The translations under genes were made by a program, and so were the position numbers. A stretch of 41,717 nt of DNA from Clostridiales bacterium Firm_07. GTDB lineage: Bacteria; Bacillota; Clostridia; Oscillospirales; CAG-272. Shown in pieces: positions 1,499 through 12,016 of the stretch (the first letter of the stretch is position 1; each line of letters opens with the position of its first letter). The notes under the pieces were generated by a model. That model saw nothing but the letters and a program-made list of their open reading frames with translations, ran no database searches and was not told the origin of the DNA. The DNA is taken from NCBI GenBank assembly GCA_001604005.1, contig LVAM01000005.1, positions 150,933-192,649 of the forward strand, written 5' to 3'.

Positions 1499-1950
1499 AC
1501 GAAAAAGATGTTGCGATCCGACTTTTTTTGGAAGGCGCAAATTGTGCGCAGGCGGTTTTTCTCGCCTTTGCGCCGCGTTGCGGGATCGACCGCGACACCG
1601 CGGTGCGCCTTGCCGCGCCGTTTGGCGGCGGAGTGGGCAGACAGCGTGAAGTGTGCGGCGCCGTTTCGGGTATGTGTATGGCGGCGGGATTGCTTTACGG
1701 CTATACCGATTTCACGGACACGGCGGCAAAGACCGAGCACTATCGCTTGATACAGGAACTCTGCGACGCTTTCCGAGCGCGTTTCGGCAGCATCGTCTGC
1801 CGCGATCTTTTGGGCAGTAAACAGGCGTTCACCTCGCCCGAGCCCGATCCGCGCAACGAAGAATATTACAAAACGCGCCCCTGCGCAAGGCAAGTCGGCG
1901 CGGCGGCAGAGATCCTTGCCGACTACATAGAGAAGCATCCGATCGTATGA
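1495..1950 (+). CDS. C_GCAxxG_C_C family redox-type protein
   Basis: The 151-residue protein fits the C_GCAxxG_C_C family (Pfam PF09719): early Cys in EGANCAQAV, the glycine-rich FGGGVGR followed by CGAVSGMCMAAG, then a Cys in SIVCRDLL and one in RPCARQV near the end. The family has conserved cysteines and is often assumed to bind a metal cluster or act in redox chemistry; its function is not established. The ATG at 1495 overlaps the mrp stop (ATGA) and has GAAAGGA about 8 bases upstream, so I prefer it to the in-frame start at 1465. Its tail overlaps the Mini-III start in the same way. Confidence 0.88.
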   Translation: MNEKDVAIRLFLEGANCAQAVFLAFAPRCGIDRDTAVRLAAPFGGGVGRQREVCGAVSGMCMAAGLLYGYTDFTDTAAKTEHYRLIQELCDAFRARFGSIVCRDLLGSKQAFTSPEPDPRNEEYYKTRPCARQVGAAAEILADYIEKHPIV

Positions 1951-2366
1951 AGACGAACGATATGGAGCGCGCCGCGCCCGATCTGCGTACCGTCAGCACC
2001 GCCGCGCTCGCCTACCTCGGCGACGCCGTGCTGGAAATTGCCGTGCGCCGGCGACTGCTGGAATGCGGTTACGCCTCTTCAAAATCGCTCAATGCCCACG
2101 CGCGCGACTTTGTCAGCGCGCCGGCGCAGTCGCGCGCCGTGGAGCGGCTTTTGCCGCATTTGACCGAAGAGGAGCGCGATCTTTTTCGGCGCGGGCGCAA
2201 CATCGGACACACAAACACCCCAAAGCACGCCACCGTGACCGAATATCGCCTGGCAACGGGGCTTGAAACGCTTTTCGGCGCGCTGTATTTGGAGAAAAAA
2301 GAAGACCGGATCGCCGCGCTCTTTGCGCTGGCATATCCGGCGGAAAATACAAAAGGAGAAGATTGA
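1947..2366 (+). CDS. mrnC: Mini-ribonuclease III
   Basis: Mini-III is an RNase III catalytic domain without the dsRNA-binding domain; in Bacillus it matures 23S rRNA. The 139-residue length fits. Motifs seen are AYLGDAVLEI (the RNase III signature with the catalytic acidic residues), RGRNIGHTNTPKHA and ATGLETLFGALYL, which carries the second acidic pair. The ATG at 1947 forms an ATGA overlap with the preceding stop; an internal ATG at 1962 is possible. The stop overlaps the start of the cyclophilin gene (TGATG), continuing a tightly packed operon. Confidence 0.93.
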   Translation: MKTNDMERAAPDLRTVSTAALAYLGDAVLEIAVRRRLLECGYASSKSLNAHARDFVSAPAQSRAVERLLPHLTEEERDLFRRGRNIGHTNTPKHATVTEYRLATGLETLFGALYLEKKEDRIAALFALAYPAENTKGED

Positions 2367-2875
2367 TGAAAAACCCCGTCATTGCGATCCGCGTCCGTGA
2401 CATCGGCACGATGACCGCCGAACTTTATCCCGAATACGCTCCCCGAACCGTGGAGAACTTTTTGCGTCTCGCGCGTGAAAAATTTTTTGACGGACTGATC
2501 TTTCACCGCGTGATCAGCGGTTTTATGCTGCAAGGGGGCGGATTTACCCCCGATATGCGGCAGAAAAACGCGCCCGCCATCAAAGGAGAGTTTGCCGCAA
2601 ACGGTTTTCGCCAAAACACCCTGCGCCACACGCGCGGCGTGCTTTCGATGGCGCGCACGGGAGACCCGAACTCGGCTTCCTCGCAATTTTTCATTATGCA
2701 CGCGCCCGCGCCCTATCTTGACGGACAGTATGCCGCTTTCGGCAAGGTGATCTCCGGCGACGAGTTCATCGACACGATCGCCAACGTGGAGACCGGCAGT
2801 TACGGATACTATATGCAGGACGTGCCGCTCTCGCCCGTGGTGATCGACACCATCGAAGTTTTGGAAAGCGAATAA
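2366..2875 (+). CDS. Peptidyl-prolyl cis-trans isomerase, cyclophilin type
   Basis: This is a 169-residue single-domain cyclophilin, a cytoplasmic folding catalyst that isomerises Xaa-Pro bonds. The core family motifs are present: FHRVISGFMLQGGG (catalytic Arg and substrate-binding Phe/Gln), LSMARTGDPNSASSQFFI, and YAAFGKVISG. No signal peptide is visible. AAAAGGAG lies 8 bases before the ATG at 2366; a TTG at 2363 is also in frame but less likely. It is the last gene of the run from position 44, followed at once by a bidirectional hairpin terminator. Confidence 0.93.
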   Translation: MKNPVIAIRVRDIGTMTAELYPEYAPRTVENFLRLAREKFFDGLIFHRVISGFMLQGGGFTPDMRQKNAPAIKGEFAANGFRQNTLRHTRGVLSMARTGDPNSASSQFFIMHAPAPYLDGQYAAFGKVISGDEFIDTIANVETGSYGYYMQDVPLSPVVIDTIEVLESE

Positions 2876-9638: not shown

Positions 9639-11750
9639 TTATTTGCGATACCAATAATAGTTGTAATAAGTCGATCTCAAATTGCTCGCGTTGGTGCTTG
9701 CGTTCGTCACCGTCATATTCGTGCCGCTTGTGGCATTGTATGTTTGTGTTACATACCAGCCCGTCGTGTTGGCAAATGTGACGCTCGTGAGATTGTAGCA
9801 ACGAAACGCATAATTGCCGATGCTCGTCACACCCGCGGGGATCGTGATGTTCGTGAGATTGCTGCAACAGGAGAACGCCCAATCGCCGATTTCCTCCACG
9901 CTCGCGGGGATCGTGATGCTTGAGAGATTGCTGCAATAGTAGAACGCATATTGATTGATTTCCGTGATACCTTCCGGCAAAGTAAGATCTGTTTCATTAC
10001 CCGTATAGCCGACCAAAATCTTATCTTCGCCATCGGTATAGATGATATATCCGTTTTCATCTGTCGAGAGTTTACTGCCGCCCTCTGTGGTATATATGTT
10101 CTTGGCATAATATCCCACTTCACCATTGCTCGAACCTCCTGCCGTGATCGTGAGAGCAGAACGGTTATACACTTCTACAAGTTTGTAGCAACCGGAGAAC
10201 GCAGAATCGCCGATGCTCGTCACGCTCGCGGGGATCGTGACGCTCGTGAGATTGCTGCAATCACGGAACGCACCACCGCCGATGCTCGTCAGTTGGCTGT
10301 TCTCTGCAAAGGTGACGCTCGAGAGACTGCTGCATTCAAAGAACGCACTAGCGCCGATGCTCGTCACGCCACCGGGAATCGTGATGCTCGTGAGATTGCT
10401 GCAACGCAAGAACGCAGAATTTCCGATGCTCTTCAGTTGGCTGTTCTCCGCAAAAGTGACACTCGTGAGATTGCTACAACAGTCGAACGCTAAATTGCCG
10501 ATGCTCGTTACGCTCTCGGGAATCGCAATGCTTGTCAAATTACTACAACTCCAAAACGCGGAATTACCAATACTTGTCAGTAGACTATTTTTTGCAAAAG
10601 AGATACTTTGTAAAGCCATTGGAATTGTACTATTATGACTCAAAAACGCAGAACCGCCGATGCTCGTCACACTTGCGGGGATTGCGATATTTGTCAAACA
10701 TATGCAATCACAGAACGAAAAATCGCCGATGCTCATCACACCCTCGGGAATCGTAATGTTTCTTAGTCCGCTACAACCGAAGAACGCATAATTGCCAATG
10801 CTCGTCACGCCCTCAGGGATCGTGATGCTCGTGAGATTGCTGCAACCGGAAAACGTAAAAGAACTGATACTTCTTAATTGGCTATTTGAGGCGAGATGAA
10901 TGCTTCTCAAATTGCTACAATTATAAAACGCGTAACTGCCTATAAACTTCACACTTTCAGGAATATCTATCCTATACGCTTGACATTTTTGAAATGCATA
11001 CTCGCCTATACTGCTTACCGCCTTTCCCTTATAAGTCGCAGGAATAATTACAGCGGTCAAATCATCAGAAAAACCTGCCACTTCGTAAGTGTCATTTTCC
11101 GTTTCTGCAAAAATCAAACCGACAACATCATTTTGATCTGTAAGTTCAGCGATTTGCGCTTCTAATGTCACCATTTTTGTTTCGTACTCGGTGCGAAGCG
11201 TGTTCAAAGCGGCAGTGTTGTCCGCGTCGGCTTTCTCCAACGCCGTTTTCGCCGCTTCGTATTCGGCGCGGAGCGTATTCAAAGCGGTGGTATTATCTGC
11301 GTCGGCTTGTTCAAGCGCTGTCTTTGCCGCTTCGTATTCGGCGCGGAGCGTGTTGAGCGCCTCTTGATTGGCGGTATCCGCAGCCAAGAGTTCCGCCGCT
11401 TTGGCGGTATATTCTTCCGTCAGCGCGGCAAGGTCGCCGTTTATACTCTCATCCGCCGCTTGCAGATTCTCCACATCTGTTTGATGTGTTTCATCTTGTT
11501 CGCCGTCTTTGGCTTGCAGGGCTTTGATCGCCTCTTGCGCCTCGGAGAGCGCTTTTTGCGTGTCGGCAAGAGCGGTCTTGGTATCGGCAAGGGAAGTTTG
11601 CGCGTCGGAGAGCGCGGTTTTCAGTTCTTCCAAGTCGGCGCTTCCCGCCGCGACCTCGCCTTCTTCACACCCCGCGAGAGGCAAGAGCATCGCCGCGCAA
11701 AGGCAGAGCGCAAGGCACGCGGCAAGGGTTTTCAGCAGTTTTCTCTTCAT
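9639..11750 (-). CDS. BspA-like leucine-rich-repeat surface lipoprotein
   Basis: A 703-residue secreted lipoprotein. The N-terminus is a lipoprotein signal (MKRKLLKTLA, hydrophobic core, lipobox LAGC with Cys28). Residues ~38-205 form a long coiled coil with heptad and longer repeats: a ~24-residue unit beginning NTLRAEYEAAKTALE occurs about three times. From ~225 to ~680 there are many LRR_5 (BspA-type) repeats of about 23 residues with the pattern CSNLTSITIPEGVTSIGxxAF. The last ~40 residues are Thr/Asn/Tyr-rich. Such proteins usually mediate adhesion or surface binding; the ligand is unknown. AAGGAG lies 8 bases before the ATG and directly abuts the terminator T run of an upstream structured RNA, so expression may depend on readthrough. 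Confidence 0.9.
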   Translation of the reverse strand: MKRKLLKTLAACLALCLCAAMLLPLAGCEEGEVAAGSADLEELKTALSDAQTSLADTKTALADTQKALSEAQEAIKALQAKDGEQDETHQTDVENLQAADESINGDLAALTEEYTAKAAELLAADTANQEALNTLRAEYEAAKTALEQADADNTTALNTLRAEYEAAKTALEKADADNTAALNTLRTEYETKMVTLEAQIAELTDQNDVVGLIFAETENDTYEVAGFSDDLTAVIIPATYKGKAVSSIGEYAFQKCQAYRIDIPESVKFIGSYAFYNCSNLRSIHLASNSQLRSISSFTFSGCSNLTSITIPEGVTSIGNYAFFGCSGLRNITIPEGVMSIGDFSFCDCICLTNIAIPASVTSIGGSAFLSHNSTIPMALQSISFAKNSLLTSIGNSAFWSCSNLTSIAIPESVTSIGNLAFDCCSNLTSVTFAENSQLKSIGNSAFLRCSNLTSITIPGGVTSIGASAFFECSSLSSVTFAENSQLTSIGGGAFRDCSNLTSVTIPASVTSIGDSAFSGCYKLVEVYNRSALTITAGGSSNGEVGYYAKNIYTTEGGSKLSTDENGYIIYTDGEDKILVGYTGNETDLTLPEGITEINQYAFYYCSNLSSITIPASVEEIGDWAFSCCSNLTNITIPAGVTSIGNYAFRCYNLTSVTFANTTGWYVTQTYNATSGTNMTVTNASTNASNLRSTYYNYYWYRK

Positions 11751-11764
11751 CGTCTTTTCTCCTT

Positions 11765-11799
11765 AAAATAAAAAAGTGCGCCAACCGAAGTCAGCGCAC
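11765..11799 (-). terminator. UUCG-loop intrinsic terminator of the structured RNA
   Basis: On the minus strand a 10-bp stem GTGCGCTGAC / GTTGGCGCAC closes a UUCG tetraloop, followed by TTTTTTATTTT. Two of the pairs are G-U and exist only on this strand. The T run ends one base before the AAGGAG of the LRR gene. Confidence 0.88.
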
Positions 11800-11982
11800 C
11801 GAAAAACGCAAACCCCGATTTGTCGCCAAACAAATTAAACAAGCGGAAGCAGAGCCTTTTATCCCTTACACCGCGTCGATGAGGTTTGCGTTTTTACCAA
11901 ACTCACGACGTCGCATACGGATAAAAGGCATATTGCACCCTTGGGCAAATGTCTGCTTTTGCTCTATTTAATTTGTTTGGCG
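11765..11982 (-). ncRNA. Large unclassified structured RNA or 5' leader
   Basis: About 218 nt from the predicted start to the terminator. The transcript begins within a base or two of a perfect 16-bp closing stem (11967-11982 with 11824-11839). Inside it are a 7-bp stem (11952-11958 with 11847-11853), a small hairpin, and an 11-bp perfect stem (11919-11929 with 11854-11864). The apical hairpin (around 11880-11905) holds AAAAACGCAAACC (11883-11895), fully complementary over 13 bases to 11802-11814 outside the closing stem. That makes a pseudoknot or an alternative fold just before the UUCG terminator. It has its own consensus promoter. I do not recognise 6S, tmRNA, RNase P, SRP RNA or any common riboswitch. 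It may be a free ncRNA or a terminating leader of the LRR gene. Confidence 0.8.
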
Positions 11983-11987
11983 CTTTC

Positions 11988-12016
11988 ATTATAGCAAAGT
12001 GCGCGGGGATTGTCAA
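11988..12016 (-). promoter_or_regulatory. Perfect-consensus sigma-A promoter of the structured RNA
   Basis: TTGACA and TATAAT, both exact consensus, are separated by 17 bases on the minus strand. The expected start, 6-7 bases on, coincides with the 5' strand of the 16-bp closing stem. Confidence 0.88.

Follow-up and report, generated by a model that had tools for sequence, protein, structure and literature searches.

What occupies positions 12016 to 11765 on the minus strand of a 41,717-nucleotide stretch of the Clostridiales bacterium Firm_07 genome (contig LVAM01000005.1; the whole stretch is called the window here), and does it serve the gene that follows as a leader or act as a free RNA? 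A preliminary description, made from the letters of the window, had left both readings standing. We find that the element is one member of a large RNA class. It is a mobile cassette that occurs widely, often in several copies per genome, in front of many unrelated genes. Judged from the compensatory changes among its homologs, which put it beyond chance, the element is a real structured RNA.

Structure of the window copy

The element and the gene behind it comprise the following features.

12011–12016, minus strand: −35 box TTGACA, read in the sequence
11988–11993, minus strand: −10 box TATAAT with TG before it (extended −10), read in the sequence
11770–11982, minus strand: structured RNA, predicted start at or adjoining 11981, end in the T run
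11964–11982, minus strand: 5′ strand of the closing stem P1 (covariation of P1 in the family)
11824–11842, minus strand: 3′ strand of P1 (covariation of P1 in the family)
11952–11958, minus strand: 5′ strand of an inner 7-bp stem, partner 11847–11853 (sequence and fold)
11919–11929, minus strand: 5′ strand of an inner 11-bp stem, partner 11854–11864 (sequence and fold)
11899–11904, minus strand: strand 1, which pairs locally with the apical strand in the P5 hairpin (double changes in P5)
11881–11895, minus strand: strand 2, the apical switch strand AAAAACGCAAACCTC (sequence and alignments)
11817–11823, minus strand: linker from P1 to strand 3, family form ACWAUC (family parse)
11802–11816, minus strand: strand 3, the 15-base pseudoknot partner GGGGTTTGCGTTTTT (paired cells in the alignments)
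11776–11799, minus strand: terminator hairpin, 10 bp with a UUCG loop (sequence; double changes in the family)
11765–11775, minus strand: T6-A-T4 run that bounds the cassette on its 3′ side (sequence; close copies usually cease to be homologous near this point)
11759–11764, minus strand: Shine-Dalgarno (SD) sequence AAGGAG of the downstream gene, read in the sequence
9639–11750, minus strand: downstream gene for a 703-aa BspA-type leucine-rich-repeat (LRR) protein (Pfam LRR_5, E = 2.9e-99)

The promoter boxes are separated by a 17-nt spacer and match the consensus at 12/12 positions. Because the other neighbor of the RNA is a divergent SpoVAD gene and this promoter is the sole promoter-like site between 11700 and 12200 (both strands scanned), the mRNA of the LRR gene, which has its ATG at 11750 and a lipobox-like N terminus, should come through the terminator. 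The closing stem P1 contains 16 perfect pairs (11982–11967 with 11839–11824), or 19 when three further inner pairs, two of them G-U, are counted; the inner 11-bp stem is the form that the variable inner helices take in the window copy. A 13-base complementarity between the apical region and 11802–11814 (11895–11883/11814–11802), noted in the preliminary description, proved to be longer, with 15 pairs (11895–11881/11816–11802), one of them G-U. The other elements of that description were found where it had placed them, namely the promoter TTGACA-N17-TATAAT, a predicted start on the 5′ arm of the perfect 16-bp closing stem, the perfect 7-bp and 11-bp inner stems, and the 10-bp UUCG terminator with its T6AT4 run and two G-U pairs. 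The predicted free energy of the minus-strand fold is −95.1 kcal/mol, as compared with −59.4 ± 4.5 kcal/mol for 200 shuffled sequences (z = −8.0, no shuffle as good).

Distribution of the RNA class

When 59 related genomes were searched at the DNA level (E ≤ 0.1, a threshold at which some matches are weak), matches were identified in 40/59 (24/40 among the high-quality ones), with up to 9 per genome and mostly covering the 3′ part of the element. Twenty-eight copies were extracted, the 3′ part of 26 was aligned, and the pseudoknot and terminator of these 26 sequences were used to build a covariance model, R1. In the order, 84 of 245 genomes had an R1 match (E ≤ 0.001), and in the class 64 of 293 (E ≤ 0.0001), in scans that scored just 13 or 11 candidates per genome. 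In a sample of the phylum (n = 299) the single match was the window's own genome, a result that mainly shows specificity, as the listing for this sample includes 10 other genomes of the class, none of them matched, and leaves out 278 genomes. Seven genomes scored in depth contained 1 (the window's), 13, 16, 16, 16, 17, and 22 matches (E ≤ 0.01). Scanning named genomes for an exact 17-mer identified at least 119 stretches; the 80 listed loci are mostly from gut Clostridia and Oscillospiraceae assemblies, many of them ruminant and rabbit, and R1 matched 72 of the 80. Seven of the eight R1-negative loci belong to other phyla or Syntrophomonadaceae, and one (L133) is in a Clostridiales assembly.

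The set of copies surveyed below retained 153 of 170 hits after removal of 10 duplicates and 7 without an anchor; a few retained copies have a mis-parsed closing stem (e.g., L004, L073, L075). Subsets of the 153 were used for folding (132), promoters (127), internal open reading frames (ORFs; 143), the tree (128), the linker (132), and tract lengths (130). The full-length alignment holds 65 of 76 non-redundant copies; six unlisted copies were left out, as were five removed by hand (L004 for its mis-parsed stem).

Covariation and the two apical pairings

Across the alignment of 65 full-length copies, 98.1% of the cells in P1, the pseudoknot, and the terminator are standard pairs. Building a covariance model from homologs and looking for covarying pairs had been suggested in the preliminary description, and compensatory changes are indeed present: 185 double-change cells were counted in these three helices, as compared with 48.3 ± 5.8 in shuffles that ignore the relatedness of the copies (0/500 as many), and sliding the helix partners gave at most 52. 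With P5 replacing the pseudoknot, 95.8% of cells are paired and 187 carry double changes. Most of the double-change cells in both totals fall in P1 (9/14 pairs) and the terminator (6/10 pairs). The pseudoknot alone contributes 7 double-change cells in 3/15 pairs (4/15 pairs in the 26-sequence set), and P5 alone 9 cells in 4/6 pairs (6/6 in the 26-sequence set). Strand 3 of the pseudoknot is paired in 98.6% of cells among the 65 sequences and 96.4% among the 26, and 3 of its 15 pairs are invariant and hence carry no covariation signal. Changes that tolerate G-U, such as CG to UG at a P1 pair and UG/CG at a pseudoknot pair, fix one strand, and the strand assigned earlier from the G-U pairs of the terminator is upheld.

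Across the 65 sequences, cognate strands pair with more favorable energy than non-cognate ones for P1, the terminator, the pseudoknot (p = 0.025), and P5 (p = 0.008). P5 and the pseudoknot use the same apical strand and are therefore mutually exclusive there; of the two, the pseudoknot is energetically favored in 65/65 sequences, so the two apical folds are not balanced. Single-sequence folds gave a P1-P2-P3-P4-P5 three-way layout in 126/132 copies under thresholds that we set ourselves, and RNAalifold applied to the full alignment recovered P1 and the terminator only, such that P2 to P5 come from the single-sequence folds. A compact subfamily of ~160–180 nt, which by eye has no P3 hairpin, retains P1, the apical strand with both of its partners, and the terminator. 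The terminator stem and its UUCG loop are conserved in sequence as part of the RNA. In 128/132 copies the identity of one linker base (A or U) follows that of a neighboring P1 base, a correlation that may reflect an alternative hairpin or a base triple; a tree test gave five supported pairs on a poorly resolved tree, and relatedness may explain the correlation.

Promoter and boundaries across copies

Enough upstream DNA was present in 127 of the 153 copies for a survey of promoters. The −35 box matches TTGACA at four or more of six positions in 96/127, the best spacing between the boxes is 17 nt in 113/127 (ties were settled in favor of 17), and the extended TG is present in 102/127. The first G of P1 falls 6 nt past the −10 box in 94/127 copies, which places the expected start of the transcript on the closing stem. 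Upstream of the promoter, from −120 to −60, the information content averages 0.07 bits (127 copies). At the other end, the spacer between pseudoknot and terminator, counting an unpaired U as spacer, is 1–2 nt in 105 of 130 parsed copies and absent in 7. The commonest tract combinations are 5 A with 6 U (47 copies), 5 A with 5 U plus CG (27), and 4 A with 5 U (12); 10 of the 130 copies have a 3-A tract and are probably mis-anchored.

Genomic position and downstream genes

The cassette usually lies close in front of a gene. Downstream DNA of 150 nt or more is available for 201 of the 205 unique copies, and by a loose test for an SD sequence plus an ORF, 153/201 have an SD-led ORF within 80 nt, as compared with 852/4000 random positions; within 40 nt the counts are 131/201 and 480/4000. 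The RNA thus has the position in the 5′ leader that is expected of a riboswitch. Reading outwards from the 5′ side of the cassette, an SD plus ORF lies within 80 nt in 52/197 copies. No SD-led ORF was identified within 80 nt in 48/201 copies. When the next ORF up to 300 nt away is considered, it shares the strand of the RNA in 133/199 copies and lies on the opposite strand in 15; 51 copies have none. In an earlier set, a gene was identified in 122/150 copies at a median distance of 22 nt after the T run, leaving hardly any space for a further promoter.

By crude sequence expressions, 110 downstream proteins, each 100 aa or longer, were compared with 697 other ORFs of the same loci: a lipobox-like signal is present in 37/110 and 36/697, respectively (odds ratio 9.3, p = 6e-16), and 61 of the 110 look secreted, versus 159 of the 697. 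Of 152 downstream proteins, the 136 that reach 60 aa were scanned with Pfam, and the counts, which have no background set, include 14 BspA LRR_5 proteins (the commonest family), 7 zinc ribbons, 4 AMP-binding, 4 MazE-like, 2 EcoRI-type methylases, and 2 dockerin proteins. The earlier proposal of a leader for the LRR gene holds as to position, as the window copy does precede a BspA-type gene, but did not foresee the range of genes involved: the cassette is not specific to LRR genes, LRR_5 accounting for just 14/136 downstream proteins.

Several downstream regions have features of their own. A small Cys-rich protein family with motifs like GVELTPG...CLGNG...ECCCDECDY is encoded directly behind many copies, with several paralogs in one genome (L003, L007, L010, L016, L140, L192, L209, L211, L214, L225, and L227). 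At three loci (L106, L123, and L069) a ribosome-binding site and start codon behind the cassette are followed by an early stop, and these are apparently decayed genes. Four others (L187, L190, L196, and L060) share a second stretch of similar sequence (GGGGTGC, often followed by GCGCAAA) between terminator and gene, for which there is no Rfam match at gathering scores and which in L187 could pair with the SD region. One locus (L011) carries tandem cassettes, at 1055–1268 and 1368–1579 (~310 nt apart), before one gene.

Mobility of the cassette

We compared the surroundings of close pairs of copies, defined by at least 80% identity over promoter plus RNA. By a crude test of neighboring genes, neither neighbor is homologous in 95/123 pairs; the ORF caller used for this test missed small genes, and one pair called non-homologous (L010/L016) is homologous on both sides by DNA comparison. 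The DNA comparison itself covered the 87 pairs for which each flank extends 700 nt (36 further pairs with short flanks were dropped). In 76 of these 87 the homology is confined to the cassette, from promoter to T run, and ends a median of 9 nt beyond the 3′ end of the RNA; in the other 11 it extends further. The proteins downstream in the 76 cassette-only pairs are non-homologous in 42, not comparable in 32, and homologous in 2. L037 and L193 have the upstream gene and the RNA in common, and their homology stops at the T run. As close copies usually share nothing outside it, the promoter-RNA-terminator unit moves or is exchanged as one, and by this pattern of homology the cassette is mobile.

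Within-genome duplication was considered as the sole source of copies and rejected: in six multi-copy genomes with 4–5 copies each in the pool, the nearest relative is in the same genome for just 3 of 29 copies. A viral origin was also rejected. The exact 17-mer gave seven hits in viral contigs, none of them matched by R1 (0/7), an 18-mer gave no hit in viral contigs, and no hit was obtained in plasmids, although two phage scaffolds do hold copies. These are unannotated fecal scaffolds labeled 'Bacteriophage sp.' (L204, MT835503; L205, MT835845) with one copy each; a lipoprotein-like ORF lies behind one copy and probably an EcoRI-type methylase behind the other. Phage carriage of the cassette is possible.

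Proposed mechanism and alternatives

Taking promoter, fold, both apical pairings, terminator, gene position, and mobility as they emerge from the comparison of copies, we read the element as a mobile, cis-acting attenuation leader cassette that responds to a putative signal, with a probability of about 0.58, and infer that the unit of pseudoknot and terminator is regulated. In the proposed sequence of events, the strong sigma-70-type promoter would make an RNA of ~210 nt that folds as P1-P2-(P3)-P4-P5. The existence of two apical pairings points to a sequence of folding as the RNA is transcribed: the apical strand would pair locally first, and the emerging 3′ segment would then capture it into the 15-bp pseudoknot, which usually ends 1–2 nt short of the terminator hairpin. 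Expression would then depend on whether polymerase terminates or continues into the adjacent gene. No upstream strand was found to co-evolve detectably with the terminator arms (cognate versus non-cognate, 65 sequences, p = 0.61 and 0.19), so that no classical antiterminator was identified; of the earlier idea of a switch between two exclusive folds, the two pairings stand, each with some compensatory changes, and the classical switch is not supported. For lack of an antiterminator we propose that readthrough is controlled by the pseudoknot helix itself, which, close to the terminator, may change its efficiency by stacking or timing, and that the putative signal (a ligand, a protein, or folding speed) would act on the pseudoknot. 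A leader-peptide attenuator was rejected, and ribosome-mediated attenuation is unlikely, because SD-led ORFs of at least 12 codons lie inside the RNA in just 16/143 copies. More tentatively, and with somewhat less than even odds, the copies may constitute a new riboswitch-like class for a probably general signal, a self-contained promoter-sensor-terminator cassette that joins unrelated surface-protein genes in one regulon, with a pseudoknot stacked against the terminator, and not an antiterminator, controlling readthrough.

The main rival to a leader is a free, trans-acting structured ncRNA running from P1 to the terminator, in which case the cassette would spread with its promoter and leaky readthrough would express the neighbor. 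Expression platforms mostly have no highly conserved terminator sequence, so the conservation of the terminator stem and UUCG loop as part of this RNA fits a free RNA, as do the failure to find an antiterminator and the 48 of 201 copies that have no close SD-led ORF, a few of them with a start codon and then an early stop. Against it, an SD plus ORF follows 153/201 copies and only about a fifth of random positions, the genes behind the RNA are a biased set, and up to 22 matches in one genome would be odd for an RNA acting in trans. It is the genomic position that favors the cis-acting leader, and we consider the free ncRNA unlikely, at between one chance in four and one in five.

A mobile strong-promoter element, in which the RNA would serve to protect or insulate the message at its 5′ end, with the terminator only tuning the level and nothing being sensed, is less probable again. 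The confinement of homology to the cassette in 76/87 close pairs and a promoter strongly conserved beside almost no information upstream of −60 are what such an element would predict, yet a fold of ~210 nt with two alternative covarying pairings exceeds the needs of an insulator. That the cassette is a repeat at the level of DNA, of the MITE or REP-like palindrome type and without function as RNA, is very improbable: it is multi-copy and mobile, and its closing stem is palindromic, but the changes that tolerate G-U fix one strand, the sigma-70-type promoter is conserved on the strand of the RNA, and the cassette is oriented towards an SD plus ORF. If the leader reading is true, a sizeable part of the gut Clostridia would regulate surface and accessory genes from a common pool by one RNA of no known family, with the control unit itself moving between genes. 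The cassette would then offer a testable handle on surface regulation in mostly uncultured gut bacteria, and a pseudoknot that abuts a terminator and sets readthrough without an antiterminator would pose a new problem.

Comparison with known RNAs and systems

The preliminary description recognized no known class, and the Rfam search that it had recommended bore this out. At Rfam 15 gathering scores no family matched the element, the matches in the window being two tRNAs only; at E ≤ 10, with 321 bases scanned, five hits fell on the element, all far below gathering scores. No listed match at gathering score overlaps the RNA in 35 homologous loci, and the T-box covariance model gave no match on the RNA in the window or these 35 loci. 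In the open literature, as covered by titles and the openings of abstracts, we found no description of the RNA; an earlier unnamed prediction in supplements or subscription papers is conceivable. Fremin and Bhatt (2021, PMC8040213) present 3161 candidate structured RNAs from human microbiomes, which in the main-text passages resemble the cassette RNA in lying close upstream of genes in gut bacteria; it is absent from those passages, and a fragment could be among the 3161. Passages of a further paper (PMC11109978) class multi-copy motifs near transposase-type genes as mobile or repeat candidates.

Several known systems share parts of this architecture. The fluoride, ZTP, and preQ1 riboswitches attenuate transcription with a pseudoknot, and like the cassette they combine a 5′ leader position, a pseudoknot, and an intrinsic terminator just before the gene with varied genes per class; unlike them, the cassette has no partner found for its terminator arms, has a conserved terminator sequence, and carries its own promoter along. 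The c-di-GMP riboswitches likewise occur in many copies per genome before surface-protein genes, and differ in fold and size from the cassette, which has no Rfam match at gathering score. Putative mobile promoters, the idea that promoter regions spread before unrelated genes, resemble it in homology confined to the promoter region with unrelated genes behind, to which the cassette adds the structured RNA and terminator. Type III toxin-antitoxin RNA (ToxI) has the same order of promoter, pseudoknotted RNA, terminator, and gene, whereas the genes downstream of the cassette are diverse; no toxin family is among the 25 listed of 65 Pfam families downstream, and a MazE-like antitoxin fold is present. 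Among the 35 loci scanned, one T-box lies in L009, away from the RNA, and Gut-1 RNA (RF01706) lies near two cassette copies, at 1839–1918 (minus strand) in L007 and 2331–2401 (minus strand) in L190.
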